A stretch of DNA of 64,000 nucleotides, from NCBI GenBank assembly GCA_950295325.1, contig OX485807.1, positions 18,819,666 through 18,883,665 on the forward strand, written 5' to 3'. The notes below the pieces were generated by a model. That model saw only the letters and a list, made by a program, of their open reading frames with translations. It was not told the origin of the DNA and ran no database searches. Of the stretch, positions 19,468-61,189 are shown in pieces. The translations under genes and the position numbers were made by a program. Origin of the DNA: Polytrichum commune (lineage: Eukaryota > Streptophyta > Polytrichopsida > Polytrichales > Polytrichaceae). Positions within the stretch are counted from its first letter, which is position 1, and each line of letters starts with the position of its first letter.

Positions 19468-19694
19468 GCCCAACAACAAATCATAACATTACTAAATCGA
19501 CAAGTTGTGTTCATTCGCCTCTACTTTTAGGTTGAGTCTGAAGCTATGGGACTCCGACATCTGGAGACTTTATTCTCAAAGCCCAACAACAGATCATAAC
19601 ATTACTAAATCGACGAGTTGTGTTCGTTCGCCTCGACTTTTAGGTTGAGTCTGAAGCTATGGGACTCCGACATCTCGAGACTTTATTCTCAAAT
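19468..19694 (+). repeat. 113-bp direct tandem duplication
   Basis: Units begin GCCCAACAACA at 19468 and 19581 and end TTTATTCTCAAA. They differ at only a handful of positions (for example AAATC/AGATC, CTACTT/CGACTT, CTGGAG/CTCGAG). The closeness implies a recent local duplication. Confidence 0.9.
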
Positions 19695-21610
19695 CCATTG
19701 TGAGTCCATGAACACAACCCATTAGCTGAGTATTACTACGACGCCTCTAAAATGGCTTACATGATTGTCTAAAGAGAAAGACAATCTTCACTTTGAACTA
19801 GAGAGAGATACATCTTCACTTTAAACCTAATCCAATGCGACAATCATTCCCAAGCCGGTCCAATGGCCATAAAGTGTGCATGGAGTTGGAAGTGCCGAGT
19901 TATAATCGAACGTAAACATGCTCAAAGGACTTGATGCGGAAGGTCCCAATATATTTGTTATAGGTACGTGAAGAAGTCGATAGCCTACCTCCTGCCAGTA
20001 GTTCTGATACCCAAAAATCTCCAAAGCTTGCCTCGGGATCCTTCTGTCACACATGTCCATGGTCCGGGTGTGTGTTGGCCCAATGGATTTTTTGGATTAA
20101 AGAGAGTGTACAGTCCTTTCGACTTGAAGCTCTCGAGAGCATTTATCCTTTGTGATCGTACTCTCGTCAGTTAACTGCTTTGATATTGTATGTATCTCCG
20201 TTCAGAGAGCACTCCAATGGAGACTATATGACAAAGCTTAATTCACAGCCATGCTGCCAGGTTGCCCATGTTTTGTGCCGCATGGGGCCACACCATAATA
20301 CATATACATAAGGTTAAGAGTGCATTTAGGGTGGGTTTAGATTACGGTGAAGAAGTGCACCGGTCGATCAAGAATTTCAGTGCAAGATAAGGTTATTTGA
20401 GGATAGAGTTGGTATGGTGGACAAGATGGGAAAAGAAAAGAAACAAGCTTAATGTTGGAGCTCTCTGGAGGCCGAGTTTCTTGTCCGAGGGTTTGAGGTT
20501 GCCAAAGAAATTTGATGTCCAGAGGCACTCCCCCAACAAAAAGCGTTGTCGTGTTGGTAGCCATGTCATTTTTGCACTCATGTTTGAAGTTCTCCACAAG
20601 AGATGTCTTGGCCATAGTGTAAACCATGGTTGGTGAAGAACCCATTTCGTAGCCAATAATATTGCTCCATTCCTCTTAAATTCTTCATTATAGTCTAAAT
20701 TGGCCTTTGGGCACCTCCTTATGCCCATGGAGGGGAGCCACACACATTTGAAAGCACCGGTTTCGAAATGGAGTTTGGTAAGCCAAGGTAAGAGAATCTT
20801 GGCCTTGACATGTGCCTGAGTTCGAGGAGCTTAATTTTTTTTGGTTAAAATCATTTATTTCCAACTATGATCGGAAACGGAGGTTTTGAGCCTTGCAAAG
20901 TTTTCATCTTGGATCAAAGTTGAAAACATACATTTATACCCCGTAAAAAAGGAACCGACTTTGAAACTGAGCTCCTTGAGGTAAGGCTCTTATGGTAGTT
21001 GTTCTTTGATCCTCACCACGAAACAAATACATGTGACAACAAAGTTACATAACATTACCCGCATACCTTAATGTCATTGCCTCAAAGAGTACACCAATCC
21101 CATTCGGCCACAATATGGTATGTGGGTATGATGTGGTTCGTTTTTCACATTCTCAAACTTCTATTGGTTAGATTACACAACGAAACTTGTGTTGCATTAG
21201 AAAAAAATATCTTGAAGCATCAACAAAAATCGGGTTGAAATTCAGACTATTGATTTATTTATTGTTTTTGGGAGTGCATGTATGTGGATTCCTTAACTCA
21301 ATACATAAAACCTCTCAATTGTGATCACTATTGAGTGTGGAATAATTAATGAAATTGAAAACATAGTCCAAACTAGTTTGAACACATGTCTTTATGGTGT
21401 TTGTTCTTTGATCCTTGCCTAACCACACACCCATCAAATATAAGTGACCGGTTTAAAAAAGCCCTTTCTCGTGATAATCAATGTATGATGAACCTTAAGA
21501 TACAAGTAGACATTGGGCTCGTCCATGCGGAAGGTCTAGAGAATATTCGGCCCATTGGATGTTTGAGATGTTCCGATATCGTTCAATTGCACAAAAAGAG
21601 AGTTGGCTGA
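19695..21610. other. Intergenic; possible decayed coding on minus strand
   Basis: Minus-strand frames at 19827-20060 (77 codons) and 20337-20743 (two overlapping frames of 102 and 116 codons) are longer and less AT-biased than the surroundings, but no domain is recognisable. A fragment of family I appears near 21365-21445 (TTTGAACACATGTCTTTATG, CTAACCACACACCC). Confidence 0.35.
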
Positions 21611-22109
21611 GGGCCACTCCACACACAAGTCAAGAGCCGTGACCGTGAAATCATGAGAGCCCAAAAGAAAGTGTCCAAAGGCCGTCCCAACACACCTCCA
21701 AACTCATGTAGTGTGGTCACGGACCCTCAAGTGTAGTGTGAAGTCATATGTGACCGGGCCCTCAACCAAATGTTATTTCAATGAATTTCTATTCATGCGG
21801 GTCCTCACACATGATAAAATAAAATTAATCAAGGATTGTCAGCATTCAGAGTGCCATAGTCTCCCAGTTTCTTGTTAGGCCTACCTCCAAGAGGTGGTTC
21901 ATGAAAATAATCCGAGTGACCATGAAACATGTCCATTCGATGCCACGTAGGAATCCACGTAGACGTTACATCCGTCTTGCATTCACATACTCCGTTGGTC
22001 TCTCAAGCGTCGTGTGAAGCGAACTTGGACCGGCTCCGCCCTTTTCCACCATTGAGAACGCTTGAAATGTAATGGTCACGGGCTCTCAGTCTCATGTGAT
22101 AAGTGGCCC
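21611..22109 (+). mobile_element. Family A MITE, copy 1 (499 bp)
   Basis: The long TIRs (about 45 bp) begin GGGCCACT and end AGTGGCCC. The inner blocks are AGAGCCGTGACC on the left and GGTCACGGGCTCT on the right. Flanks are TGA and TAA, consistent with a degraded 3-bp TWA duplication as in PIF/Harbinger-type elements. Internal landmarks used for the other copies are CCCAAAAGAAAGTGTCCAAA, CCTCAAGTGTAGTGTGAAG and AGGCCTACCTCCAAGAGGTG. Confidence 0.75.
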
Positions 22110-22269
22110 TAATCTTCTCTAGATTTTTTCACAAGGCTTGTTGGGATAAGTCGTCACTATCCTAGAGTCGTGTCAAGTTAGGTGAATGACAACAAACATC
22201 CCTCATTACAAATGGTCATATTAATCACATAACCGGTCACCATAGTTACCTTGTAGCTTCAATGTAATC

Positions 22270-27494: not shown

Positions 27495-27512
27495 TAAGCC
27501 CATTCGAAATGA

Positions 27513-27976
27513 GGGCCACTTCACACACAAGCCAAGAGCCGTGACCATGAACTTGTGAGAGCCCAAAAGAACGTGTCCAAAGGCCATCCAAAACACTTCC
27601 AAAATCATGTAGTTTGGTCGTGGGCCTTCAAGTGTAGTGTGAAGTCCTATGTGACCGGAACCTCAACCGAATGCTATTTCAATGAATTTCTTTCATGCAT
27701 GGTCTGCACACATGATAAAATAGAATAAATCAAGGTAAGTGGCATGGTCCCATGCTTTTGTGTTGGGCCTACGTCCAAGAGGTGGTTTGTGAAAATAGTC
27801 CAAGTGACCATGAAACAAGATCCATTTGATGCCACGTAGGAATCCATGTAGACTTTACATCCATCTTGCATTCACTTACTCCGTCAGTCCCTCAAGCGTA
27901 GTGTGAAGCAAACTTGGACCAACTCCATTTATTCCACCAATGAGAGTGTTTAAAGTGCAATGGATGCGGGCCCTCA
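27513..27976 (+). mobile_element. Family A MITE, truncated copy
   Basis: Full left TIR (GGGCCACTTCACACACAAGC) and interior, but the sequence stops at ATGCGGGCCCTCA, where the next copy begins. The right terminus is missing, consistent with a copy inserted into or recombined with its neighbour. Confidence 0.7.
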
Positions 27977-28847
27977 GGGCCACCTCACACACGAGCCAAG
28001 AGCCGTGACCATGACGTTGTGAGAGCCCAAAAGAAAGTGTCCAAAGGCCATCCCAAGAGACCTCCAAAATCATGTAGTGTGGTCACACACCCTCAAGTGT
28101 AGCGTGAAGTCATATGTCACCGGGCCCTCAACCAACTGCTATTCCAATGAATTTCTATACATGCGGGTCCTCACACATGATAAAATAGAATAAACCAACA
28201 GTCGTCAACATTCATAGTGCCATAGTCTCCCGGTTTTGTGTTAGTCCTACCTCCAAGAGATGGTTTGTGAAACTAGTCCAAGGGCACCACGGGCCTTGGC
28301 TTGGTGGTTAGGGCTCATGGCCCCCAATGAGGAGGTTGTGGGTTCTATTCCCCATGCCGGCGTGGTGCCACTGTCTTAGTCCACCCAACTATGGTGGGGG
28401 GTCCTTGGACCTTGTTGTATGGGTACCTCAAAGCCCTTTGGGGGGATACCATGTCCGGTATCTTCAAGGCACTAGTGGCTAGCTAGGAACTTGTATAGTG
28501 TGTCACTATAGTGTCCATCCTCGAAAGGGGAGAGTAGTATTTGTCCCAATGTCCCCTTGTCCAGTGGGCATCGGGTCATTGGCATTACGAACAGACATTT
28601 TATTCACGCCGGCTCCTTGCTTGAAAGGGGTCGGAGTTTCTATCTATCTCCAAGAGACCATGAAACACGATCCATTCGATGCCACGTAAGAATCCACGTA
28701 GACTTTACATCCGTCTTGCATTCACATACTCCGTCGGTCCCTCAAGCATCGTGTGAAGCGACCATGGACCGGCTCCGCCTTTTCCACCAATGAGAGCGCT
28801 TGAAGCGCGATGGTCACGGGCTCCCAGTCTCGTGTGTGACGTGGCCC
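27977..28847 (+). mobile_element. Family A MITE split by a SINE
   Basis: The element starts GGGCCACCTCACACACGAGC and ends GTGGCCC followed by TAA. It is interrupted at 28283-28648 by a tRNA-like SINE. Removing the insert and one TCCAAG copy rejoins the GTCCAAG and AGACCATGAAAC blocks in the order seen in other copies. Confidence 0.75.
28283..28648 (+). mobile_element. tRNA-derived SINE (366 bp)
   Basis: Near the left end there is an A-box-like TGGCTTGGTGG (28297-28307) and a B-box-like GGTTCTATTCC (28341-28351), at the spacing of internal Pol III promoters. The block is flanked by TCCAAG direct repeats (28277-28282 and 28649-28654). It lies exactly where other family A copies are continuous, so the empty site is known. 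The tail ends in a TCTATCTATC tract. No second copy was recognised here. Confidence 0.75.
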
Positions 28848-29252
28848 TAAGGCATCGTTTTTAGAAGTCGCTAGAACGACATAGAACCGACACATCCAAT
28901 GGAGACTTTTTAAAACTGGCATAGATTCGAAGTTGCCACGAATGCTGCCACTAACCGGCAAGTATATTTATAGACTATATCAGTTTGTGGAGTATGTAGC
29001 ACTCCAGCTCGACCTTGGATTTGGGGTGGGGTGGGGTGCTGGGACCCATAAGTGAATAAAGGCCAAGGGGGGGGGGGGGGGGCCTTACCTAGAGAAATAT
29101 TAACAGGCAATACATTTTCTAACCGAACCCTAGTTTCATCGGGCAGCACATCTCTCATCCATCCATGTCCAAGAAGAAGAAAAAAATTTGTCGTGTCATG
29201 TAGGTTTAGGGATAGTTGGTTTATTTTTTATGATGTTGGATGGAATTATAAT
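28848..29252. other. Intergenic, no gene seen
   Basis: Contains a G run (about 29069-29083). No element or gene recognised. Confidence 0.5.
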
Positions 29253-29868
29253 ACACATGATGTTTAGTGTCATGTGGTATTTTATGTCACTATGGTAAAG
29301 TTTTGGATGACACTTCTTGTGAATCAGGTTACGAATACTATTGTGGTTGATGGATGAGTTCATCCATTGGCCGAAACCCTACCTTCTCTTGTCAGCAACT
29401 TGTGATGAAATATATTGTCATGGATTATTGAAATTTGGATGAAAATATGCTCGGTGAGTGACGATAATTGCAACACTGTAAACCTACAACCCCCCCCCCC
29501 TAAAAGATTACAAGGAATGACAAATATGTCACTATGGTAACTCTTTTGGGTGACACTTCTTATGAATCAGGTTATGAATACTATTGTGGTTGATGGATGA
29601 GTTCATCCATTGGCCAAAACCCTACCTTCTCTTGTTAGCAACTCGTGATGAAATATTGTCATGGATGATTGAAATTTGGATGAAAATCTGCTTGGTGAGC
29701 AACGGTAATTGCAACACTGTAAACCTATGATCCCCCCCTAAAAGATTACAAGGAATGACAAATATAATGTTGGGTTAGCGTTAAGTGTTGGTGACACTAT
29801 ACCATGGTTTACAATTAGTATCAAGCAAGACAATTTGAATCGGTGACACTAAGTATCCTATTTAGTGT
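29253..29868 (+). mobile_element. Family B MITE enlarged by an internal tandem duplication (616 bp)
   Basis: It ends CCTATTTAGTGT followed by ACT and shares TAGTGTTGGTGACACTATA, TTTACAATTAGTAT and GTCATGGAT tracts with the 1.9 and 8.3 kb copies. The left end, ACACATGATGTTTAGTG, is diverged. The extra length over the roughly 400-bp copies comes from a duplicated 240-bp middle. Confidence 0.6.
29284..29764 (+). repeat. 240-bp tandem duplication inside the family B MITE
   Basis: The units start ATGTCACTATGGTAA at 29284 and 29525 and both end AAGGAATGACAAAT. They are nearly identical except for small substitutions and the length of the internal C run, so the duplication is recent. Confidence 0.9.
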
Positions 29869-35324: not shown

Positions 35325-35823
35325 GGGCCATTTCACACACGAGCCAAGAGTTGTGACAATGAAATTGCAAAAGCCCAAAAGAAGTGTTCAAAGGCTGTCC
35401 CAAGACACTTCCAAAATTACGTAGTGTGATCACGCGCCCTCAAGTGTAGTGTACAATCACATGTGACCGGGTCCTTAACCAAATGGAATTTCAATGATTT
35501 TTTTTGCATGCGGGGTCCTCACACATGATAAAATAAAATAAATCAACGGTTGTGAAATTTTGGAGTGCCATGATCTCCCAATTTGATGTTAGACCTACTT
35601 CCAAGAGGTGATTCAAAAAAATAATCCAAGTGACCATGAAACATGATCCATTCGATGCCATGTAAAAATCCATGTAGAATTTACATGCATCTTGCATTCA
35701 CTTACTCCTTTGGTCCCTCAAGCGTAGTGTGAAGCGAACTTGGACCGTCTCCGCCTTTTCCACCAATGGGAGAGCTTGAAGTGCGATGGACACGGGCCCT
35801 GAGTCTCGTGTGTGAAGTGGCCC
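35325..35823 (+). mobile_element. Family A MITE upstream of CDPK copy 1 (499 bp)
   Basis: It starts GGGCCATTTCACACACGAGC and ends GTGTGAAGTGGCCC. Flanks TTT and TTA suggest a degraded 3-bp TSD. It has the same length as the copy at 21611. It ends immediately before the GC-rich leader of CDPK copy 1, so it may lie in the promoter of that gene. Confidence 0.75.
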
Positions 35824-35839
35824 TTAGCCACTCTGGTCC

Positions 35840-36300
35840 TCGTACGTCGTACGCAGTTAGGGAGGGCAGCTAAGCTGCCGCCCTGCCCGCTGCCCTCTGC
35901 CCGGCGGTAAAAGAAAAGAGAGGCGCAGATGAAGAAGAGAAACGGAAGCCTCCGGCCTGCTTCCCATCGCCCGCCCGCCCGCCCGCTCTTCCTTCCTTCC
36001 ATCCATCTCCATCGCCGAGATCTTTACCACGCCCAGCGCACACTCCCTAACTCGATCCGCGATTCCGCCCCCGCCTGCGCTCCCGCATCCACAAGACGCG
36101 TAGATCGCGATTCGTATCACTGCAAACTGTGGGGCGTGGCAGGAGCTCTAGTGCTGCGAACGACTCAAGGGGAGCACATCCCATTGCAGAGTAGACCAGA
36201 ACAGCGCAGAGCAGAGCTGAGCTGAGCTGAGCAGTTCAGAGAGGTGCATTTGGTGGCGATCGGCCGACTGTTGGTTTGGATGGGGGCTGTAGCGCCTCGT
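35840..36300 (+). promoter_or_regulatory. GC-rich promoter/start region of CDPK copy 1
   Basis: Composition changes abruptly to GC- and CpG-rich with pyrimidine-rich tracts (CGCCCGCCCGCCCGC then TTCCTTCCTTCCATCCATC at about 35971-36008). It then becomes purine-rich with GAGCTGAGCTGAGCTGAGC at about 36214-36233. This looks like the transcription start and first untranslated exon of the long leader of the kinase gene. No TATA box is obvious and the exact start is not determinable. Confidence 0.45.
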
Positions 36301-36339
36301 GCGTGGGGTTAAGTCTGCAGGAGTGGCCGTGACCTTTCC

Positions 36340-37860
36340 AAGGTGCGTAGGAGGCTCCTCTTGCTCTTGTTCTTACGCTAGTTTTCATGTTTTTTGCTTT
36401 ATCAAAGCAGTCCTTGAATTCTGGAAGTCGTGGATTGGAAGGAGATGTTGTCGTGGAAGTCTATTGCAAGAGACATTCTCATTCTTGATGTTATTGTCAG
36501 ATCACGGAGCCTTCTAAAGGTGCCTGTTAATGCGTTATCAGACTTTGATTAGTCGCAGGTTTCTGTTCTTCGCGAGGTTCGTTCGAGCAGTACCAATGTG
36601 CAGGACTCGTTAGAGTACTGAATTTGAACCAATTTTGAGGGTTGTCGGAATGCAGACAGGAAATATGGATCCTATTCTTGCGCTAGTTTTGACGTTTTTG
36701 GCTAACATAGAAGTCCTCGAGCTTTGGAGGTCTTGGATTGGAAGGAGACATCGTTGTGGAAGGTTATTTACAAGAAACGTATTTATTCTTGATATTAAAT
36801 CAGATCGCGGAGCCTATCGAAGCCGCCTTTTAGAGCGCTCTGCTGCCATAGTCTCAGGCTGAGTTTCGAGCAATACTAATCTCAAGGACTCCGCAGAGTG
36901 CTGAATTTGAAACCGTTCGAGTCGATGTACCTCAAATTTGAGATATGTCGGAATACAGACACAAAATACGCCATCCTGATATGCGTATGGCTCTTGTCCT
37001 TTGTGCTAGTTTCGATGTTCTTGCATCCAGCATATCTATTCTGGAACTCGTGGAGTGGCTATTGCAAGAGCCATTATCATCATTGATGTCACATCCCCGA
37101 GCCTGTCCAAGGCGCCTGTTAATGCGCTCCGCCGCCATAGTTCGATTAGTCTCAGGCTTCTTTTGTTCGTGAGGTTCGTTCGAGCAGTATTAATTTGCAG
37201 GATTGGCACTGAAGTTAAACCAATTGTGAGGTATGTCGGAATACAGACGGAAAATAAGCCTTGTCATCATCGAAAGGATCTTATTCTTGTTTTGTTTTTG
37301 GCTCTAACATAGCAGTTCTGGAAGTCGTGGATTAGAAGGAGACGTCGTCGTGGAAGTCCATTGGAAGAGCCATTTTCATTGCTGATTTTAAGTCAGATCA
37401 AGGATTCTGCTAATGAGATCTGTGGTCTTAGTGTCTCGGGCTTCTATTCTTCGTGAGGTTCGTTCGAGCAATACTATTGTGCAGGATTCCGTTTTTAATT
37501 CGAACACGATTTAGTCGTTCGTGCGGCGAATTTGAGGTGCTTCGGAATACAAACACAATACGCCTTCCTCGTTAGCGTGTGGCTCTCGTTCTTTGCGCTA
37601 GTTTTGATGTGTTTTGGTTCTAATGTAGCATTTCTTGAATAGTGGACGTCGTGAAAGCTATTGAAAGAGCGATTTGTACGATCTGAGAACGGATCCTTTC
37701 GAAAGCGTCTGTGAGTTTAATGCTCTCTGCCGCCATAGTTCAATTATTTTTTATGTGATTCGAGCGGTACTAATAATCATTCGAATGCTGATTTTGAATC
37801 CATTGTACCTCGAATTTGAGGTATGTCGGATTACAGACACAAAATGCATCGAGTTGTTTG
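36340..37860 (+). repeat. Degenerate tandem array (about 5 x 300 bp) in the CDPK copy 1 leader
   Basis: The marker GCTAGTTTNNATGT (or its relic) recurs at about 36377, 36682, 37005, 37288 and 37597. It is followed in each unit by a CTGGAAGTCGTGGATTGGAAG-like block, a GTTCGTTCGAGCA block, a TGCAGGA-like block and a GAGGTATGTCGGAATACAGA-like block, in the same order. Units are diverged by substitutions and small indels. Several carry acceptor-like (TTTGCAG|G, GTGCAG|G) and donor-like (GAG|GTATGT) motifs about 30 to 55 nt apart. The array lies between the GC-rich start region and the coding region, so it is probably transcribed. Confidence 0.75.
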
Positions 37861-39039
37861 GGATGGGATCTGCACTTGTTGGATAGATTGTCTATCATTT
37901 GGTTTACAAGCTGTAGGTTAAACGCTCAAGAAGAGTAACCTCACCTGTCTCAACGAAAATTTAGATCAGCTTAATTATATTGTTCTTTATAGCTCAAGTA
38001 ATGTCGGTCTTCGCTATTTTTTCAAGATAGCACCACAATGTTTTGGTATTCAGAATGCGAAGCTATGCGGGGATATAACTTCTGCCTTCTCGTCTTGAAT
38101 TGGCCCAGTTGTGATACCGTTAGTTTAGAAAGGGTTTCCTACTTAAGAAACGAACTTACGTTGACGGGTCCAGATCTCCATGTGATCCCAGCGTTTGCGT
38201 CTCTTTGTGTGGAGATGGAGTCTTAAAACTGTTGAGTAATACAAGCCATAATTAGCAGGGTTTGTTTGAAGAGGCGAAGAGCAAGCCGCGCAATGTGTTT
38301 CGCGGGTCTGTCGTCGCGCATTTCATGCGATGATGCGTCTTAACATGTATTCCTAGTTATTGCTCTTGTCTGTATGGTGCCGACGAAGAAGATAAGATTG
38401 TACGATTTCCGTTCTAGTATTGTACGGTTTTTTTACTCGTGACTCATCTGATTGCTGGCACCTGTCTTCCATAAATGTACAGACGATCTCCATGATTCTT
38501 TCTTTTATTTCCTAGTTCATTTCATCAGAATTTTCAACTGGATATGAAATCAAAGTCGAGTTCGCAGCCTGGAACTTGATAGTAATAAACTGCTTCTGTG
38601 GACTCTTGATTGTCTGCTTCTCATACATTGAAATGCATATAAGATACGTATTCAATCTTGTTGCCTCTGAGCCCTACAATCTTGTGAGGATGCGTAGCAT
38701 GCTGGTTAAAATACATAATTTTAGTCTCTTATTATTGTTCAAGTCGTCCTCCCCTCACTTATATTATCGTGTATGGTTAATGTCATAATTTTGAACTCAA
38801 TCTGTATTTTGAGGACATCTTAATATCTTCGGTTGAACTGCGAAGATAGAGCTGAAGCACGACAAGGCGGTCATTAGTGTTCTGTGACATCAAATGTGAT
38901 GTTCATGGGAATGGTCTGTTATCAGTTTCAGGTTTATCTTTAGATTTACCACATTATAAATCTTGTATTCTGTAGTATTTTGGAGCATGATGTGCCCTAT
39001 GCAATCAACTGACAAGGCTTCTTCTGTTTTATGTTGCAG
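37821..39039 (+). other. Candidate leader intron of CDPK copy 1
   Basis: The last array unit has a strong donor, TTTGAG|GTATGT, at 37821. A strong acceptor with a pyrimidine tract, CTTCTGTTTTATGTTGCAG|G, ends at 39039. Splicing here would join array sequence to the last leader exon. This is inferred from consensus only. Confidence 0.4.
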
Positions 39040-39928
39040 GAATACTTTGCGGGTATGACCGGAAATGTCATTTTTGGAGGCCCGATGGAGCTGGGTATCT
39101 AAAGTCTCGCAAATTGAGTTGAAGATTGGAAGTGCTCGTTGTTGGACAGAAAAGCTCTTGGAGTCGTCTCCAATCCTGCATGATAAAGGTGATAGAGGTG
39201 ATGATTGCATGCTTCCAATTTTGACGTCACCCTTTACCCTGTTTGATGATCTACTTCAACTATGTTGATGTTGTTGTGGATCATTGTAATCATTGATAAC
39301 ATGAAATCGTGCACAGATTAACCCACCCCTGTATCCATTTTGGGTCATCTTTGCAGCTCATAACTTCAATGATGAAAAGTACTGTCTGAGTACTATCAAT
39401 TTGTGGACAGACATTGTTAATAAAATTGGTAACGCTTTGCTGAATAAGAACTTTTAGTGGCATGACCGGAAGGAAAGTAGCTTCAAACGAGTTGAATCAG
39501 AAATTTGTGCATAGCCTCTATTAGAGCTTCTCTTCAGTGTAGATCAAGGTTTGAATGCTCCAAAGGCGTTCAAGGAGGAATGAGATTGTAAGAGACAGTG
39601 GTTGACGTTGTAAGGGTGCTTCCAGAATCGTCTGCGTACTGGTGGTACTCTCAGATTCACATCGCGCCATGAGCAGAGATCATAGCACTGGTGACGAATG
39701 ATGAGCAGTCCATAATTGGAGACTTTGGCCGATATTGTTTGCTAGTATCCTCCATTTTGGGTTCGCCTACACTCGACAGCTTCTAACTTAGATCTTCAGT
39801 TCCAGTAGTCGCCATCCTTTGATGATGAATTTGATGATGCCGCTAAAAGTATTTTTACTGGACATGTGGATATTGCAGATGCTTTAGAGGAGAGCAGCGG
39901 AGTCGTCATGAGTACCTTTAAGCACTGA
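39040..39928 (+). other. Presumed last 5' untranslated exon of CDPK copy 1, with several upstream ATGs
   Basis: The sequence between the acceptor at 39039 and the start codon contains several short upstream frames, the longest 39065-39268 (67 codons), and no in-frame extension of the kinase. It could instead contain further introns. Confidence 0.4.
39908..39928 (+). promoter_or_regulatory. Six-codon uORF abutting the CDPK copy 1 start codon
   Basis: ATG at 39908, five further sense codons and TGA at 39926-39928, directly followed by the kinase ATG at 39929 with no spacer. Such an arrangement is known to favour termination-reinitiation control; here that is inference. Confidence 0.55.
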
Positions 39929-41611
39929 ATGGGCAACACATGTGTTGGAGCAGCCAGCAAGACAGGGTTCTTTGAGTTTGACCCAGAATCATCCACGAAT
40001 TCTAACAGTCAGCCATCAAACGAGGGATCCACGCAAGAGCGCGAACCAGAACCCGATTTCACTCAACAAAAGCCACCTCCTGAGAACCATATTCCACCGG
40101 TTGCTAAAAAGAGCGAGCTGAAGGAAGCGGTTGCCGCCATGAGGAACGGAGGGTTTAACCTTATTCCCGGACAGAGTTTCACACAATCAGTTCTGCAGCG
40201 GCAGACTGAGAATCTTAAGGATTTGTACACTTTGGGTAGGAAGCTCGGCCAAGGCCAATTTGGTACCACGTACCTGTGTATTGAGAAGGCTACTGGCAAG
40301 GAATATGCCTGCAAATCCATAGCTAAGAGGAAGCTCATCTCACAGGAGGATGTGGATGACGTGCGTCGCGAGCTTCACATCATGCATCATCTATCAGGGC
40401 ACCCTAACATTGTTACCATCAAGGGGGCTTATGAAGATTCTGTATCAGTTCATCTAGTTATGGAATTATGTGCAGGTGGTGAGCTTTTTGATCGAATCAT
40501 TCAAAGAGGCCACTACTCTGAGGCCAAGGCTGCCGAGCTGACCCGCGTCATTGTGGGTGTTGTGGAGGCTTGCCACTCGCTTGGGGTGATGCATAGGGAC
40601 CTGAAGCCAGAAAATTTTCTCCTCTCAGATCCAAGCGAGAATGCTGCTTTGAAGACGACTGATTTTGGGCTCTCTGTGTTTTTCAAGCCAGGAGAGATTT
40701 TCAGTGACGTGGTTGGAAGCCCCTATTATGTTGCTCCTGAGGTTTTGAGAAAACACTATGGCCCGGAAGCCGATGTCTGGAGTGCCGGAGTGATCCTTTA
40801 CATTCTTCTCAGTGGTGTGCCCCCTTTCTGGGCTGAAACTGAGCAGGGTATTTTTGAGCAAGTACTGAAAGGTGATCTAGATTTTGTCTCGGAGCCTTGG
40901 CCGAACGTCTCCGAGAGTGCCAAGGACCTGATTAGGAAGATGCTGAACCCACATGTTTCGAAGCGCCTTAAAGCTCACGAGGTGTTGAGCCATCCATGGA
41001 TCCGTGAGGACGGGGTCGCCCCCGACAGGCCCATTGATCCCGCGGTCCAATCTAGGCTTAAGCAGTTCTCAGCTATGAATAAGTTGAAGAAAGTTGCAAT
41101 TCGTGTCATCGCCGAGTCGCTGTCGGAGGAAGAGATTGCCGGTCTAAAGGAAATGTTCAAAATGATGGACACAGATAACTCCGGGTCAATCAGTTTTGAC
41201 GAGCTCCAAGCGGGCTTGCACAAGGTGGGCTCCAACCTCATGGAGTCCGAAATACGCCAGCTGATGGACGCCGCTGATGTTGACCAAGATGGGACGATTG
41301 ACTATGGTGAGTTCATGGCTGCCACCCTGCACTTGAACAAGATCGAACGTGAGGAGAACCTTTTTGCTGCTTTCTCATGGTTGGACAAAGACCACAGCGG
41401 TTACCTCACAACCGATGAGCTACAGCAAGCTTGTATCGAGTACAACATGGGTGAGACGTGTGTGGAAGACTTGATCCGCGAGGTCGACCAAGACAATGAT
41501 GGCCGTATCGACTACAATGAGTTTGTGACTATGATGCGAAAGGGCAACGGCGGTGTCGGCCGGGCCACATTGCGCAACAGCCTGAGCCTCTGTGATTCCT
41601 TTATGCAGTAA
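39929..41611 (+). CDS. CPK: Calcium-dependent protein kinase (CDPK), copy 1, 560 aa, intronless CDS
   Basis: A Ser/Thr kinase activated directly by calcium. Residues 1-99 are a variable domain beginning MGNTCVG: Gly2 fits N-myristoylation and Cys5 palmitoylation, so membrane attachment is expected. Kinase domain about 100-358: Gly loop GQGQFG 107-112, ATP lysine K129 (YACKS), alphaC Glu E148, HRD 222-224, DFG 245-247, [11 protein letters not shown] from 263 with APE at 269-271. The autoinhibitory junction is about 364-400, followed by four EF-hands at 414-425, 450-461, 486-497 and 520-531, all with canonical Asp at position 1 and Glu at 12. Full length, no lesion. The start follows directly on a uORF stop and is the only start giving the acylation motif. 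Most angiosperm CDPK genes have introns inside the CDS; this one has none. Tandem paralog of 57628-59361. Confidence 0.97.
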
Positions 41612-45262: not shown

Positions 45263-46747
45263 AGCCCTTTCATGAAAACCAAGAATCACGTTCGTTCGCG
45301 ACATACATAACATTATTCAAATTCATAATAGTGTTATGTGGGACGAGCAATATTCCATGGAATGCTCCCGTATATTTCCCACATTCAGTTTTTATGTGCT
45401 CTAAAAGCCCTCCACATACATTTTTTTAATGTTGTAAAATCAAGCAATACACATATAATTTCAATGATAAGAATATGAGTGACAATATGTATACATAAAA
45501 ACATTACATTCGTATATAGTGATTAACAAAAGTATATAAATATACTTTTGAATAACAATCAACTTCTATCATATGTAAAATGCATTCATCATAAAGACGT
45601 CGAGGATTTTTTTCATCCCCGGATGTGACTCATGAGCACCTGAATTGCCATAGAAACTAATGCAATTTTAGTTTCAAAAAATCCGTAAGATCATATGAAA
45701 ATTTCATCGTAAGTCCCCTTGTTTTTGGCCTTTCTGATACCAACATAAGCCAATCTCCATTTTCAATGGATGGCTCATCAAGTCAATTGGATCCCTACAC
45801 TCCACCCAATGATTACTAGATTTTCTACGCATCTTATAAACCCTCCCAACAAACCGAACTTATTTGGAGTTGGTTTCCTTGATCTACCTCATTTTTGACG
45901 ATTCTAGCTTTAGGTGCGTTCTTGTCTTGACTTTCCTTGTTTGCATCTTGGAGTTATAATATCAGTCAAAACTCAAAGTATCTTGAACAAAAAGAAGTTA
46001 CTTTACCCGTTTTATTCCACTTGTTAATTAGTCTCTACCATGCATGCTTTAATAATAGCCATAACCTAATTCGGAGACAAGACAAGCGTTCTGCTCTCTA
46101 TTCAACACCAAGAAATCAATTGATGGAAGAATTTATCAATAAACACTTATTGTTGCTTCCACAATCAAATACACAAAACTACTAATGTGACGAACACCCA
46201 AAAGGAGGTAGGGGCAATGTGAAACACATGAAACATATGAGGAAAGGATGAGTTTTGAGCACCTTTGTGATTTCAACAAACCATTCTGTTGGCATTTGCG
46301 ACATGACCTAACTTGTAAGTCACCTAATGCATGTAATCACTACTTGCATCAACCACTTGCATCACCCATCCGCATCTCCTTTCATCAACCTCCACAAAGA
46401 AGCGCGGCCTATTCCTCTTGCAATCCTAAGCAAGAAGTGGGCTCATTCAACGAGCCCTTCCAAAACCCTAATACTGCCTCTTTCATACATGCATGAATGA
46501 GATAAAGAAATGAAAAAAAATCATCCTAGTTTCATCCAACATTGAATATTTATTCCATAGAGTCTAGTGACACTACCATACAATTACAGATGTTGTATAT
46601 TTTCTAGAGGTCCTTCGTACATGTACATAACTATGAGCTATAATTTGTGTAGCATATGTATATGTGGTATGGAAAAGTTCAAATTAATACTCCTTTTGTG
46701 CACTCTTGTATACTCATACATGTTATGAAAGGTGCACCCCTGGGATG
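45263..46747. other. Intergenic, no gene seen
   Basis: Two frames of 82 codons (45937-46185 and 46248-46496) have no recognisable features. The rest is AT-rich. Confidence 0.5.
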
Positions 46748-48171
46748 AGGGCCTATGACCATTACACTTCAAGCACACTCATTGGTGGAAAAGGCGGAGC
46801 CGATCCAAGTTCGCTTCACACTACGCTTGAGGGACCAATGGACTATATATATGTGAATGCAATATGGATGTAAAGTCGACATGGATTCCTACATGGCATC
46901 AAATGGATCATGTTTCATGGTCACTTGCATTATTTCCAAAAACCACCTCTTGGAGGTAGGCCTAACATAGAACCGGGAGACCATGGCAATTTGAAATCTC
47001 ACAATTGTTGATTTATTATATTTGATCATGTGCGAGAACCCCGCATGAATAAAAATTCATTAAATTAGCATTTGGTCGAGGGCCTGGTCACATATGACTT
47101 CACACTACACTTGAGGGCCCCTAACCACAATACCGTAGTTTAATAGCAGGTTCGGCACAAAATAATTCTAAAAATAGATGCCTAAATTTTTGGAATATTA
47201 TTGGCATTTTTTGCCGAATATAAAATTAATTATTTTTCAAAAATGTCTAAAAGTAAGAAATTTTTACTTCTCACTAGAGTTTTACTTACAGTGGAAGCAT
47301 ATGTGAATTTTGAAGGAGAGAAGGTGCTCCTTTTGTAATCAAGCTCACGTACATTAGTCCACAGAATATGGGTTAAGAAGTAGCAAGACTCTAGGCGAGG
47401 CTTTTCAAATGTGTTGTACACAAACTTTTGGAGTCCAATTGAGCATAGAAGATGAAGTTTTTATAGAATTTTGTCCAACTAACAAAAGTTGAGAAATCAA
47501 TCCTTCTTCCACCTCCAACAAGTTTTGTGTCAAAATAAGTCTTTATGCAAAAGATATGGACAAAACATTGCAGCCGTGTAAAGATCAAAAAATTAAAATG
47601 CGTTCATAACAGTTTTTTGGAGCTCATTTGTGCATAGAAGATCAACTTTTTTGGAATTTTGTTGGTCTAAGAAAAGTTTAGAAATCAAGTAATATTTCAT
47701 CTCCAACAAATTTTATGTCATTTGAAGACTCTATGCAAAAGTTATGCGTGTTATAAAAATGACGTCTAACTAGGTGCTTCACCTCAAAGTTTACATATCC
47801 CATATGCATTGTTGAACACAACTCCACTCTACTTGCATAAAGCACAGAGCATTCTCAACTCTTCACTCACATCTTACTTGTCATTCAATGCAAGAGAGAT
47901 GTGCAAGATATAAGTTGAAATAGAAAATTAAAAATGAATGTAAGCCGAATTTTTAAAAATTAAAAGAGAAAATTGCCGAAAATATGAATATACTATTTTT
48001 AGGTGCTGAACCTACTTTTTGAACTTTAATTAAATATTAGGCAGCAAGTTGCCTAACCTGCTAGTAAACTACGGTACATGATTCTAGAAGTGTCGTGGGA
48101 TGGCCTTGGACACTTCTTTTGGGCTCTCACAATTTCGTGCTCACGGCTACTGGCCCTTGTGTGAAGTGGCC
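46748..48171 (-). mobile_element. Family A MITE, minus orientation, split by element D
   Basis: In complement it carries the family landmarks: GGCGGAGCCGATCCAAGTTC, CACTACGCTTGAGGGACC, CCACCTCTTGGAGGTAGGCC and CTTTTGGGCTCTCAC. It is interrupted at 47133-48074 by a TA-flanked TIR element. Removing that restores the CCACAATACATGATTCT equivalent of the CCACACTACATGATTTT found in other copies. Its right end (GTGTGAAGTGGCC) lies 8 bp from the next family A copy, in inverted arrangement. Confidence 0.7.
47133..48074. mobile_element. Family D TIR element with TA TSD (942 bp)
   Basis: The TIR is CCGTAGTTTA(A/C)TAGCAGGTT(C/A)GGCA at both ends (about 26 bp, two mismatches). TA lies on each side (47131-47132 and 48075-48076). 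The host sequence is a family A MITE, so the empty site is known. A TA duplication fits Tc1/mariner-class or Stowaway-like elements. The interior is AT-rich and has two short minus-strand frames (47230-47421 and 47391-47588) without recognisable transposase motifs. It also contains a diverged direct duplication (AGATGAAGTTTTTATAGAATTTTGT against AGATCAACTTTTTTGGAATTTTGT regions near 47450 and 47640). Confidence 0.8.
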
Positions 48172-48330
48172 GTGAGTTAGGGCCACTTCACACACGAGCC
48201 AAGAGCCGTGACCATGAAATCGTGAGAGCCCAAAAGAAAGTAAGTGTCCAAAGCCCGTCCCAACATACCTCCAAAATCATGATAAAATCAAATAAATCAA
48301 ACAGTTGTGAGCGTCGGAGTGCCATGGTCT

Positions 48331-49832: not shown

Positions 49833-50089
49833 CATGGTCTCCCAGTTTTGTGTTAGGCCTACCTCCAAGAGGTGATTTTGAAAATAAGTCAAAGTGACCA
49901 TGAAACATGATCCATTCGATGCCACATAGGAATCCACGTAGACTTTACATCCATCTTGCACCCACACACTCCGTTGGTCCCTCAAGCGTAATAGTGTGAA
50001 GCGAACTTGGACCGGCTCCGCCTTTTCCACCAACGAGTGTGCTTGAAGTGCAATGGTCGCGGGCTCTCAGTCTCGTGTGTGAAGTGGCC

Positions 50090-50579
50090 GTGAGCTATTA
50101 AGAGACGTTTCCCAACGACGGGATTGAGTCGGGAGCAGTCAAAGCAACTCAAAAGCTTAAAAGAAAGGTGCGAGAAGCTTCTCCCAATGAGACCCCGAAG
50201 CTTCAATAATACAAGGTCTCTCATGTGATCCACTCACATTATATAAGTTAGATGTACCTCTTCTAGACAGCTGTTGTTTTTTTTTTCTTCTTCTTCTTCC
50301 TCTAGTTCTCCCCCCTTGCCTTGCCTTGAGCTTCACCTTTTCTTTTTCTACCGGCCTTTCTTTTCTAGGTAGGGAGGTGCATTGCAACCGAACCGAATTT
50401 GCCCAACAAATTCCAAGAAGGTCGGTGGCAAACACTTTCGAACACCCGATGCCGTATGCCAATTCTTTGGGAGCAAAATATCACTCCATCGCCGTGTTGC
50501 TTTTTGGGTTGGCAACGGTAAAGGTACACGTGTAGATGGGTCTTAAATCATAGTTAAACTTTTCCCAACTTGCTCACCT
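50090..50579. other. Promoter-like unique block, no gene
   Basis: ACATTATATAAGT near 50234-50246 followed by a long pyrimidine tract (TTTTTTTTTTCTTCTTCTTC near 50278-50300) looks like a plant TATA and leader region. No substantial coding region follows. It may be a gene or LTR fragment. Confidence 0.3.
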
Positions 50580-51754: not shown

Positions 51755-54639
51755 CCTAATTGGGACTCAAGCTTAGAGCTCATATAGTGCCAATTGACTC
51801 ATTAGCACGTCTCAAGGTCAAGGTATGTGGGCCTCACATTGAACGGCTATATTTGAGTGGTATATTGCAAGACTCATTTGCGCGTCCCAAGGTAAGGTAT
51901 GTGGGACTCTTCTTAATTGAACATCTTTATTTGTGTGGCATATGTCAAGGCTCGTAATTAAGAACGGACACCGACTTTTAAGGCGTGTGTTACGATGAGA
52001 TTAAAGAATGTGGACCCAAAACATGGACCATTGTACAGGGAGAACCGACCGCTAGTTATACATGAACTAGTTGAAATTCACGACTTCATGAAAATTATCA
52101 ATCATTTATGGAAGAATCTATGGAATATGCCTCGAATTAATAAAGAAAACCCGAATAATCACAACATGCGACTGGTTGGACTCGGAAACACTAGAATGTT
52201 TGATTGACTGAAATTCTAGGTTCAACGATGAATGTACTTGGGAGGACTTTTAATGTATGTATGTGATGTCTTCAAGAGAAAGGCAACCTTCACTTTGACT
52301 TTTTATGCATCTCAATTCCAATTCCGAATCTTGGAATGATACTTAGTGTGATTCACGATTGCAAATTGGATGACACGGTCTTCTAAATTGCTTTCATCCA
52401 TCGGTCAAAAGTATACGTGGAGGTGGAAGTGCATGCAATAGGGCCACACACCTTATCTTAAGGCGTGCTAATAAGTGCAGTCAAGGCGTTGTGGCACAAA
52501 ATAGCCACAAACTAGTGGACGAGATCTCTGAGTTGAGGTTGCTATGTCATTGTGCTATCATCTGAATCCTGTATTTGATGCACTATATCACTCCATTTCC
52601 CCCTTTCTCGTGAACGATTTCACAAGAGTAAGGGTTTGTGCCATGTATGACACTCAACTGCAATTAAACTTTGGTAAGCATAATCAAAGTAATGGGAATT
52701 GGTTTCTATCTAAAGATATTTTTTCACCACCTAGCAACCCATATAACCAACAATTGGTAGTTTGTAAAAGTTGAATTGCCTTCCTCTCTAATGACTCTCT
52801 TCGTTGGTCAATTGCAATTATTATTCGCTAGAATGATGAAAATCTCCACACATGCGGTGTGAGATGAGGGCAGGCATGGGGAGGGGATCACCCATCAAAG
52901 TATGACCAATCACTCCAGAATAATGTACAGTAATCGACTTAACAACATTGATACACGACGTTCCAAATGATAGATCATGAGAGACAACAATTTAACCTAA
53001 GAAGTGATTTTGAATACTTTAACATGTTCCTGTTATAATTACAATTCGACATGACAAAATGCAAGTAAATGCAAGTAAATGATGAAGACCATGGATTCCA
53101 CCTCTCGTGAAAGGGAAACCATCTCACACCAATCACTTTGTTAATTTCAAGTTGATTGGTGATATATTTTGTGACCGAATTATCATGGTTACTTATCACA
53201 TTTTGCCTTGACACCCAATAACTTTTTGAATGTTGAGGCCCAAGGACGAGACACCGTGACTTTCCCTTCCAAAGTCAACAAGACTTTAATACTCTAGGTG
53301 GTTATGTCAACGAACTAGGCCAAATTTTCTCTCTCTTCCAAACTTCTTAATTACAAGTGAAGGGCCGGGGCTCTGACACTCGAAGACAATTTATAATTTA
53401 TCATGCTTCTTCAACATCATCGTGTTGCCAAGCGTTGAGTCCAAATTAAGCTTTATATTTTAAAATGACACTTTCCATATCTTTTGTCACCATGCACACA
53501 ACCTCACCTTCCAATAATTTTTACTTACTTAAAGTTAGTAGGTACTTCCATCTTTAGCATTCCCACCAAAAGGGCTTGCCATAGGTTTTTTTGTGTTATC
53601 CTGCGCTTATAGTATTAGTACTATGTACCTAATTAGTTTCGAGGGAAGAATCCCACAACATTGGCTGCCTTCTTAAGCTACTATGACCTCCACTATTAAG
53701 AAACATGGTGTTAGAACGCACATCCCCAATTGACATGGGTAATCATTAGAACACGACCCGATTAACAAGAGTTGAGCCCAGTCTATATTCATTATAAATT
53801 CTATATGACTACTGTCAATCAAGTCATATGCAAATGCCAAAAGTCAATCCAAACCTGCACCATTATTATTATTTCTTTGTTTTTTTTTTGGTTTTTTTTT
53901 GGGGGGGGGGTCTTTTAAAGTTTTTTGTTCCTACCGTAATCATGTGTTTTTAAAAGACCATGTTATCTTATTGAATGTCAAGAAGAAATTTGGTATTCAT
54001 AATTCTTATCTCACCTCTATTGGGGATCATGTCAAAATGTTTGTAGCTACTATAATCTTCTACCAAGGACCCACAATATAACCACCGCGCGGGGGGTTAG
54101 GGGGGGGGGTGACTTCCTTGTAGAGATATGAATCATGTGCGTTAAAGGGATATTTCAAGGGGGGATATGAAATAATGCGCATATTCATGGGATACTACGC
54201 ACATGTGGTGTTTATTCATGTCATATATCTATTATATTTTGAAACGGAGTTTCCAATTCCATAAATTTTTTAAAGACTTTTATAAATTACACTTTGCAAC
54301 TTTAGAGAGGACCCTATCGCACAACATTTTCTAGTGGAATGCCGGCTACCCCCCTTTGAAAACTGTCCTTTTCTTCCATTTATGGTGGTTGAGTACTAGG
54401 TGAAGCCTATGTACAACCAAATCACACGATGTGATACTTACTGGTGGAAAATGTTGACAAAGGTCTTGGCTTGATCTCTTTACTTCCATGAAGAAAATTG
54501 TCACAAAAAGCCAAGGCGCACAACAAAATCTTCACCAATCTTTTCGCAAAAGAAAAAACGGTCATGCTGATGGGGATTTGAGAGGATTTTCATCAGTTGG
54601 CTAAAGCAAACAACCTTTATTCAATTGCTTTTCTTATTA
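51755..54639. other. Intergenic, no gene seen
   Basis: Short frames only (at most 79 codons) and T/G homopolymer runs near 53880-53912 and 54085-54110. No element recognised. Confidence 0.5.
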
Positions 54640-54970: not shown

Positions 54971-57627
54971 GCCCCCCCCTACCTTAGCTTGGTATAGACA
55001 GCCAAGTTCTTTCAATGCACATCTTACTCCGCGTGGAACCATTTAGCTACTCGCAGCAAGCCATCGGTCCAGATTCCATGTCGTACGCGGGGCCCAACGG
55101 CTGAGATGACAGGATGAGAAAAGGAAGCGGGATCGTGGACTTCAGAGCGAGCGATTGCAGACTCAATTCTTTCCCTGGAAAGATGTCAGGCCACGTGGAA
55201 GGCTGAGATTAAGCGATGTGATCTCGTCTTTCTAGACCTGGAAAGATGAGTCCATCTTTTGGTCGTCTCTCCCGACTCGAGTGCGCAGTCCATTGTAGCG
55301 CGCTGCGCAAACGCTCGCCATAGCTGCTCACAGCCCTCGAGCTCTCCCAGTTCGCTCAAATTTGACTCGACTATCACATGATCGAGGTAAGTGTGGCTCA
55401 GCCGTGCCGTCTCTTATAAATTTATAAATTTTTTTGGGGGGTTTTTTCGGGATTTGTTTTGCAAATTTTCACATGCTTCGCAGCTGAGGTAGACTTTCCT
55501 TTCTCTGTCTCCCTGTCGCTTTTGACGGCTGGAGCTTTCCGGTGGTGCAGCCGTTCGTGATGGGGAATGAGAGAGGAGGAGGATTATGCTGAAGTGACGC
55601 TGGTCGTGTAGATAAGCTCGTTTCGTGGAAGTGAGCAAGATTGTGAGAGGGTTCTAGTGTCCGGCGTAGCCGATTCATCGTCTCGTTCAGTTTTCTGTTA
55701 GAGGCTTTAAGTTAGTTGAGGAGCTTAAATGTTGAGTGAGCAGTTTTTGGATGTTGATATTATGTACGCAAGGTGGGAACCCCGTGGAATCATTGTGGAG
55801 GTGAGTTTGGGAGTGGTGTGGGGAGCTTAGCAAAATTAGTGTGCACCTGGGTGTCTTTGAAGGCTTCCTTTGCGATTCTCCATTCTTTTAAGGTTCTTTT
55901 GTTTTTCGGAGGCTTACCGCTGCCCTGACACGCAGAGTTTTGTCCAGGATACACTAGAGCTGCAAAATTCTGGTCCTCTGTTTATAGAATTTTCAATTTT
56001 TAATATGGAACATGTCGGATTACACTGAGGAGTACTCGTGGATCATCTTAAACTGTGCCGTCTAGACTTTCAGGTTCAGCAGAATGCAAGCAAGGATCCA
56101 AGAGCACGGCTGGTTTTAAATGGATTTGTTAGACTTGACTATTGCTTAAGTTTAATCCCTTAATTTGATCCTAGGGTTCCAAAACTGTAGCGACAACCTC
56201 ACTTGCCTGAAAACGCTGTTAACATTCTGGAGTTCGTAAACGGCGTCAAGAAGAGACAGAGCTAAGATATTATTGGAGGAAGCTTAGGAGTCGTGATTCT
56301 CCTCGAAGTTTCATTTTTAGCAATTAGTTTCTATAGCCTTTCGGAGCTTGAGAAAGTCGTTTTTGAGGATTACTTGCACAAACCGTATTTGGATTTTCAA
56401 ATCAGCAAAGCACAAAGGTGGTGCCTTTGCCGCCCACACGAAGTGCGGACACGTGGACGAAGTCATCTTGTATATTTTTGGCAGTCAGAGATTCTGCTTT
56501 GTGTACAAAAAATTCCAGTAGCCTTGAAAGAGAACAGAGTGCTCTAGCAAAGCTGGACTGAGCTAGAATTGCTCGTGTTGGTGCTAAAAGGACGAAAAAA
56601 AGCGCCACAATTCGGAACGCTTGTCAGTCTTTGGAACCATAGGTTAACATCTGGTTGGTGGACATTGCGTTCTTGTGTTACGCCTTAGGGAGACGGGACA
56701 CTCAGTTGTAGTTGTAATGTTAGGTGTCGGTAACTGGTGAATCAGATTCAAAGCTGATGAAATTTGACTTCTGGGCAAGTCGGCCATTGTAGAATCTATA
56801 CTTTTACCGTGCAAAACATTATCTACGGGGGGCATAGAATATACTTGTATACTCTATTCCAAAGTCCTATATTGTGCCACTCATTAGCTTACTTCTAGAA
56901 TGTGCACTCTTAGATCGGAAGTAATACACCGTTCGGCGTTCGTAAGTCGCAGATTCCACTCACAGTGACTGTCGCTTTCTACAGACAATGTTGAATCCTA
57001 GTGGGAGGCGATCATTCTTGTGGAGTGAATTAATTGAACTGCAAACGTGGACTGGTTGTAGCAGAGATTGTGGACACTCTTGAGAGTAAAAAGACCCGCT
57101 AGAATAGTTAGACACGCGTTTGTCATTTTCTTGATTCTCAGTTGCTACGGCACTCCCTTAGCGTATGGAGAGGCTTTTCATGCTATCTGACACTCGGCTG
57201 TGATTCCTGCAGAGTGTTTCGGATAAAGTCGAAGAGTCACCTCTGATCAAGTCTCGCTGGCTGGGGAATCCGAGACGTGCTCAAGTGATTTTGGAGATGG
57301 AAATGTTCAATTTCCAGCGGAACAGCTCCTGTGGTCCGCGGGCCTGCGTCAGCTCCGTGCAAAACATGCTTCTAGTTAGATGGCTCTGAATCATGTGAGC
57401 CTCTACTCTCCAGGAAATGAAGGTTATAAGGGCATGAGGGGCACATCCACACTGCTATATCGTTTCCTCGCGGCATGTAACACTTCGGGGTCCAAGAATC
57501 TAGCGAGCAGGTGGTCGGGTATGTTTGAATCCTTGTTTTCGTACATGCTGTGTAGGTTGGGGTAAGACAGCAAGAAAAAAAGGGTCAGTTACTTTCCTGG
57601 TGAAAGTATGTTACACGTTGGGATTAA
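54971..57627 (+). promoter_or_regulatory. Promoter and long 5' leader of CDPK copy 2
   Basis: After 55,020 the sequence turns GC-richer and unique, as in the copy 1 leader. A consensus donor GATCGAG|GTAAGT lies at 55387 and an acceptor TTCGCAG|C at 55483, giving a possible 97-bp intron. A second donor, GTGGAG|GTGAGT, is at 55801. Later acceptor candidates are CTTTCTACAG (ends 56984) and GATTCCTGCAG (ends 57212). The exon pattern needs transcript data. No copy of the tandem array seen in the copy 1 leader was found here. Confidence 0.4.
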
Positions 57628-57646
57628 ATGGGCAACACATGTGTAG
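57608..57646 (+). promoter_or_regulatory. Twelve-codon uORF overlapping the CDPK copy 2 start codon
   Basis: The ATG at 57608 opens a frame different from the kinase and stops at TAG 57644-57646, 14 nt past the first base of the kinase ATG. If transcribed, translation of the kinase would need leaky scanning or a downstream-shifted transcript start. Confidence 0.5.
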
Positions 57647-60490: not shown

Positions 60491-60963
60491 ACGCACATCT
60501 TTCTTACGTCATAGTTTTTTCAAACGAAATGCAATAAATGTTCACAACGTTCAAATGAGGCATATTCGTGAAGGTTATACACAAAGAAAGGATGTATATT
60601 TACACACAAAAGGATGGAACCTTAATGAAGCATGTTTTACTACACCCATAGTATTAGGACTATTTAGTGCAGTTCCCGGTGCCTCAAAATGTAAGTTCAC
60701 TTTAAAATAGTCTGGATATGGAGTTTGAACTTCAACTCTAAAAACTCAAAATCTCTCATGATATGCATATTCTATTGCTAAATAAGATTATCTATTTCTA
60801 TCTAAAGTGCTCATCCATTCGGCATCTAATTTCGACTTCAACCACTTAGCTGCTGTTGTCCATCTTTTCAAATTTTGTTGCAATGGAGGGATTTTTCTTC
60901 CTATCAGAGTTGGTGTGATGGAAGACATGTCAATCCAACTTAATTTCACAATATGACCTGCCT

Positions 60964-61189
60964 GATCTGCTCTTGGCCATTGTCGTTTGAGCATTTAAGA
61001 ATGATCTGCTCTCGGCGTTTGTGTTTTAAGTATTTAAGAACGATCTGCTCTTGGCCATTGTGTTTTAAGCATTTAAGAATGATCTGCTCTTGGCCATTGT
61101 GTTTTGAGCATTGAAGAATGATCTGCTTTTGGCCATTGTGTTTTGAGCATTTAAGAATGATCTGCTCTTGACCTTTGTGTTTTAAGTAT
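60964..61189 (+). repeat. 39-bp minisatellite, about 5.8 units
   Basis: GATCTGCT recurs at exactly 39-bp steps: 60964, 61003, 61042, 61081, 61120 and 61159. The unit is GATCTGCTCTTGGCCATTGT followed by GTTTTAAGCATTTAAGAAT, with scattered substitutions. It has no CRISPR-like spacers. Confidence 0.95.

Follow-up and report, generated by a model that had tools for sequence, protein, structure and literature searches.

A Probable Decayed Tandem Duplication in the Predicted Leader Intron of One CDPK Paralog

Just upstream of the coding sequence of one plant-type calcium-dependent protein kinase (CDPK) gene (copy 1), the plus strand carries a tandem array (36343-37870) made of five same-strand units and a partial sixth, which is probably a decayed tandem duplication in the leader intron of this one paralog, amplified after the two CDPK genes had split and under no detectable constraint; coordinates refer to the window, the whole stretch of 64,000 nt that was analysed. 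By this account, tandem amplification of a ~300-bp segment, the 5′-most of the copy 1 leader intron, would have given five and a bit copies, probably after the separation of the two genes; the copies would since have decayed, each by ~11-19% from the majority sequence, with no constraint detected. The array would be transcribed within the intron 36343-39039 and would leave the transcript together with it, and its donor- and acceptor-like motifs, presumably inherited from one ancestral unit, would for the most part have no function; the gene would be affected, if at all, via intron length or first-intron position and not via the splicing of units. The array is a real but ordinary feature. As such, it would be a further case of local tandem duplication adding length to a leader intron, and it would carry a caution, namely that repeated splice-like motifs can arise simply from one ancestral copy having them.

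Architecture of the Array

The five units, with lengths of 297, 303, 288, 306 and 284 bp (units 1 to 5), span 36343-37820 and are followed by the partial sixth:

36343-36639, plus strand: repeat unit 1 (nhmmer 36354-36638, E 2.1e-86)
36640-36942, plus strand: repeat unit 2 (nhmmer 36643-36942, E 6.6e-81)
36943-37230, plus strand: repeat unit 3 (nhmmer 36945-37229, E 2.4e-79); its last 30 nt are 37201-37230
37231-37536, plus strand: repeat unit 4, starting with donor-like GTATGT (6.61 bits) (nhmmer 37233-37537, E 5.4e-76)
37537-37820, plus strand: repeat unit 5, starting with weak donor-like GTGCTT (0.71 bits) (nhmmer 37539-37821, E 1.6e-66)
37821-37870, plus strand: partial sixth unit, starting with donor-like GTATGT (6.61 bits) (nhmmer 37823-37870, E 0.003)

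The nhmmer profile was made from the five units themselves and their five rows match by construction; the independent test is that of shuffling, in which 10/10 unit pairs outscore all 100 dinucleotide shuffles of one member. This bears out the sequence-only reading where it had described a degenerate array with a repeat of ~300 bp, with five units in one orientation, in the leader of CDPK copy 1. Pairwise identity between units ranges from 0.67 to 0.78 (mean 0.727), and the head-to-tail copies, being more alike than chance, form a degenerate tandem repeat array. Self-alignment of the window and the unit profile revealed no second site of the array; in the rest of the window, the sole other row given by the profile up to E 10 lies on the minus strand (52150-52185, E 8.1). 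Tandem Repeats Finder at a score of 50 returned 12 rows in the window, none of them the array, a miss that fits the degeneracy of the units. Long alignments occur at a two-unit offset (36451-37148 with 37048-37746) and a block of ~22 nt, kept in units 1, 2 and 4, is absent from units 3 and 5; these offset alignments and shared gaps suggest that some amplification steps copied a pair of units.

Degenerate intronic tandem repeats extend from minisatellite-like to satellite-like local duplications. The array is like them in its head-to-tail units of similar length that have accumulated gaps and substitutions, in its placement within one predicted intron and in not having been found in the paralog leader; it differs from them in its long unit (~300 bp) and in boundaries that coincide with donor-like motifs. 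Tandem repeats in a CDPK leader intron were not found among the literature matches listed (titles and abstract starts), which is no claim of their absence from print.

Gene Context and the Leader Intron

The array lies between a GC-rich region and the coding sequence of CDPK copy 1, and the features that define its setting are the following:

39929-41611, plus strand: CDPK copy 1; kinase domain and EF hands encoded in one open frame (560 aa)
57628-59361, plus strand: CDPK copy 2, the paralog, 577 aa; array not found in its leader
35860-36342, plus strand: GC-rich start region of CDPK copy 1 (promoter / untranslated exon 1, putative TSS), placed by composition and by the best donor at its 3′ end
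36343-39039, plus strand: predicted leader intron of ~2.7 kb, with donor AAG|GTGCGT at 36343 and acceptor TTTTATGTTGCAG ending at 39039

The best solved-structure match of copy 1, among the best 60 of 3021 rows, is calcium-dependent protein kinase 3 (5e-198). In both CDPK copies, the complete kinase and EF-hand coding sequence is intronless and forms one open reading frame, an organization that is unusual among plant CDPKs.

The promoter-proximal leader intron is a model drawn from splice scores and composition, the bit scores of donors and acceptors being computed with splice tables of plant consensus frequencies. The 35860-36342 region has a GC content of 0.617, a T content of 0.182 and 2 ATG vs 5.7 expected (P 0.04), and AAG|GTGCGT at 36343 is the best donor in 35860-36360 (4.13 bits; next 1.17). 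At the other end, the acceptor ending at 39039 tops those listed for the copy 1 leader with 8.81 bits, the next ones, of 5.37 (36558) and 5.02 bits, both lying within the array. The array is T-rich and in composition resembles the remainder of the predicted intron (T 0.334 and GC 0.431 vs 0.354 and 0.396), unlike the coding sequence (0.239 and 0.505). The simplest and most likely gene model would have one leader intron, 36343-39039, enclosing the complete array and excised whole. The array holds 23 ATG vs 28.5 expected (P 0.10); the copy 1 leader at 39041-39928 holds 25 vs 23.4 expected, and with a count so near expectation a further leader intron is possible there. As for CDPK copy 2, it has a strong donor (GAG|GTAAGT at 55387, 7.45 bits) and acceptor candidates that are weak to middling (best 5.65 bits); its predicted intron is ATG-poor, with 17 vs 26.6 expected (P 0.005), which would fit a partly exonic leader.

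Paralog Comparison and Age of the Array

The paralog leader had been said to lack the array, and this stands: it yields no unit-profile row up to E 10, and the score of the array against it (356.7) is no higher than that of shuffles (361.9 +/- 15.3; 33/60 as high). Taken singly, units 1-5 are equalled by 10, 6, 18, 15 and 31 of 40 shuffles, respectively, and the array was rejected as a homologue of the paralog leader. Against an unrelated stretch, 32/40 shuffles score as high as the array, and the exon 1 region compared with the paralog exon 1 region is equalled by 13/60; these leader comparisons were aligned with lenient gap costs. By the same procedure, the array-free rest of the copy 1 intron (37861-39040) scores slightly above shuffles against the paralog leader (55381-57627), with 3/60 as high.

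The two CDPK copies share 79.8% of 559 aligned residues, and 66% of their 193 fourfold sites differ (JC 1.62), the NG86 dS of 4.07 being saturated. The divergence among units, ~0.34 (JC from the mean pair identity of 0.727), is far below the fourfold distance of ~1.6, so that the gene duplication probably predates the array, on the assumption of comparable rates and of no gene conversion keeping the units alike; with gene conversion among units, the array could be older than it looks. The simplest reason for a paralog without the array would be that the array arose after the gene duplication.

Decay of the Units and Tests for Constraint

Identity along the unit is uniform (P 0.40 for the maximum over 15-column windows and P 0.10 for the variance) across the 264 of 398 alignment columns that have at most one gap. 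Each unit is 0.83-0.89 identical to the majority sequence (mean 0.853), i.e., a decay of ~11-19% per copy, at which 24% of copies (~1.2/5) should still carry an intact 9-nt motif; GAG|GTATGT is kept at 2/5 internal boundaries. Neither the retention nor the loss of donors departs clearly from neutral decay, five copies giving little power against weak constraint.

Coding units were considered and rejected. Stops occur in 15/15 forward and 15/15 reverse unit frames, and units 1-3, under one way of cutting the units, have open stretches of 57, 72 and 75 codons in frame 2. For the forward frame that is most open, mismatches in the same phase, summed over the 10 pairs, are even over the codon positions (80/278, 77/276 and 82/278), and pairwise gaps are multiples of three in 31/107 cases; neither the open frame nor the third-position excess of a protein-coding repeat was thus found.

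Known RNA genes were likewise set aside. No Rfam match reaches the gathering score in the whole window, and a search up to E 5 over 35800-39950 gave one match, MIR528, below the gathering score and outside the array. Folded with alifold, the whole unit gives -14.49 vs -10.4 +/- 3.6 for neutral decay of random ancestors, 26/200 of which are as low; plain column shuffles are as low in 2/100 cases. A 14-pair helix around the acceptor-like motif has 61/70 cells paired and 3 double changes, for which 5000 runs of simulated neutral decay give P 0.08 (pairing) and P 0.03 (double changes) in a region picked after the fact. The hairpin region (alignment columns 258-306) is equalled in strength by 0/200 column shuffles and in covariation score by 20/500; by eye, when the five fragments are folded singly (z -0.3 to -2.0), that of unit 1 alone takes this form. 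A conserved RNA hairpin was rejected on these grounds: the region was chosen after sight, 1/5 fragments fold and the whole unit is ordinary under neutral decay. Neither a family match nor structure beyond neutral decay marks the units as an array of structured RNA genes and, with a weak reservation, they are taken to hold no RNA structure.

Splice-Like Motifs and the Duplicated-Exon Reading

The splice-like motifs quoted in the sequence-only reading are present where it had placed them, and 37201-37230 does measure 30 nt. GAG|GTATGTCGG stands at 37231 and 37821 (positions of the base that follows the bar), i.e., at 2/5 internal unit boundaries; the altered donors are GAG|GGTTGT at 36640 and GAG|ATATGT at 36943, and the acceptor-like motifs are TTTGCAG|G, ending at 37200, and GTGCAG|G, ending at 36603 and 37484. 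From such motifs, it had been proposed that the units resemble duplicated leader exons. Read in this way, they would be untranslated exons that are alternatively spliced, and the array would share with tandem duplicated alternative exons units bearing both acceptor- and donor-like motifs. Unit 3 offers the clearest candidate, TTTGCAG (5.02 bits) and GTATGT (6.61 bits) on either side of 30 nt, and unit 1 provides a second candidate pair, of 18 nt, formed by the acceptor ending at 36558 (5.37 bits, the highest-scoring acceptor listed within the array) and GAG|GTTCGT at 36577 (4.32 bits).

However, scored with the splice tables, the named acceptor/donor pair is intact in 1/5 units, that of unit 3, and the array differs here from tandem duplicated alternative exons, in which acceptor and donor are intact in each copy. 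The donor GT is gone at the ends of units 1 and 2 and the end of unit 4 reads GTGCTT (0.71 bits), while the acceptor position is CTCAAG in unit 2 and a gap in unit 5. In the candidates themselves, a further AG precedes the acceptor AG by 13 nt in unit 3 and by 6 nt in unit 1, and a nearby preceding AG is unfavourable for acceptor choice. Lastly, conservation in the putative exon does not exceed that of the flanking part of the unit, identity showing no significant clustering over the 264/398 columns. It is thus highly improbable that the units are duplicated exons, and the resemblance proposed earlier was not supported.

Inner Donors and Alternative 5′ Splice Sites

No donor listed for the copy 1 leader scores higher than the GTATGT sites at 37231 and 37821 (6.61 bits each), and both surpass the exon-1 donor (4.13 bits); among all 3755 GTs of the window, 0.16% reach their score; three GAG|GTTCGT sites of the array (4.32 bits) also lie slightly above the exon-1 donor. 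The motif AGGTRNGT is over-represented in the array, with 2 exact occurrences vs 0.11 expected (0/100 shuffles have as many) and 8 with one mismatch vs 3.57 expected (2/100 shuffles). These scores and counts speak for a ladder of 5′ splice sites, an unlikely alternative in which exon 1 would have several ends, one each at 36342, 37230 and 37820 and perhaps further ones at GAG|GTTCGT sites, with all ends joined to 39040; the longer leaders would carry units and many upstream ATGs and would be poorly translated. In keeping with this, the ATGs ahead of the donor, counted from an assumed start at 35990, rise from 1 (36343 donor) to 15 or 22 (inner donors). On the other side, GAG|GTATGT survives at about the rate of neutral decay, the GT is lost at 2/5 internal boundaries, the composition of the array is intron-like, and the leader past 39040 already has 25 ATGs, which makes the effect of extra ones hard to judge. 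The AGGTRNGT excess would equally be given by the copying of one ancestral motif.

A more elaborate and frankly improbable version holds that the ancestral unit contained the end of exon 1 together with its 5′ splice site, and that the donors at 37231 and 37821 would outcompete or share with that at 36343; the resulting leaders would differ in their upstream ATGs (1, 15 or 22 before the donor) and would constitute a translational dial dependent on repeat number and present in one paralog only. The exon-1 end does resemble the end of unit 3 nearly in register, a match reached by 23/1000 shuffles, which is not significant over five boundaries. Against the five boundaries in turn, a first test gave P 0.08, 0.71, 0 (0/300, at 37231), 0.18 and 0.93, and a longer query, itself shuffled, was equalled by 389, 843, 23, 785 and 35 of 1000 shuffles; the match is nearly in register at 37231 and out of register at 37821. 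Up to E 10, a profile of the unit boundary matched nothing in 36240-36343; two unit boundaries gave weak rows with it on the minus strand (E 0.11 and 0.13), which stem from a short near-palindrome. The paralog exon-1 end, compared with the same five boundaries, gave P 0.06-0.78. Homology of the copy 1 exon-1 end to the unit boundaries is thus not proven. Were the inner donors used, the array would be a natural case of a tandem duplication that multiplies a 5′ splice site and changes the leader of one kinase paralog.

A Possible Intronic Regulatory Array

The sequence-only reading had offered alternative leader exons or an intronic enhancer array; the exon part was not supported, and the enhancer part is retained as a doubtful alternative. 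According to it, the units would carry first-intron enhancing or transcription-factor sites, and their copy number would raise the expression of copy 1. The position of the array, directly behind the first predicted donor and promoter-proximal in the predicted leader intron, would suit intron-mediated enhancement. This effect is confined to roughly the first kilobase, and in Arabidopsis the motif TTNGATYTG, located near the transcript start, raises expression in a dose-dependent manner, as described in one report (PMC6760150). With the AtMHX leader intron and the UBQ10 intron, the array would share a long 5′ leader intron near the promoter. The AtMHX leader intron is 416 nt long, and the words 'repeat' and 'copies' have 0 occurrences in the main text of its report (PMC3808313). 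The array differs from such introns in that TTNGATYTG is not enriched: on its plus strand there are 0 exact occurrences vs 0.19 expected and 6 with one mismatch vs 3.58 expected (15/100 shuffles have as many), although this motif comes from Arabidopsis and need not be relevant to the present gene. The units also lack any block of outstanding conservation, which counts against a regulatory array.

Other Repeats in the Window

Further local tandem duplications are found in the window, e.g., at 19468-19693, 29283-29765, 47426-47746 and 60963-61186, so that such events are not rare here. That at 29283-29765 is a direct duplication of ~245 bp with 91% identity, and that at 60963-61186, downstream of CDPK copy 2, is a 39-bp tandem repeat in 5.7 copies. 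An inverted self-match of ~205 bp with 78% identity at 48077-48281 is a possible hairpin-forming element. The window also contains an interspersed repeat family of up to ~500 bp, the pieces of which are 78-89% identical and lie in both orientations:

35325-35828, 21607-22112, 27510-27977, 27973-28282, 28649-28854, 46746-47141 and 49833-50095, both orientations: pieces of the interspersed family

One copy of this family, on the upstream side of CDPK copy 1, stops ~30 bp before the GC-rich start region of that gene.
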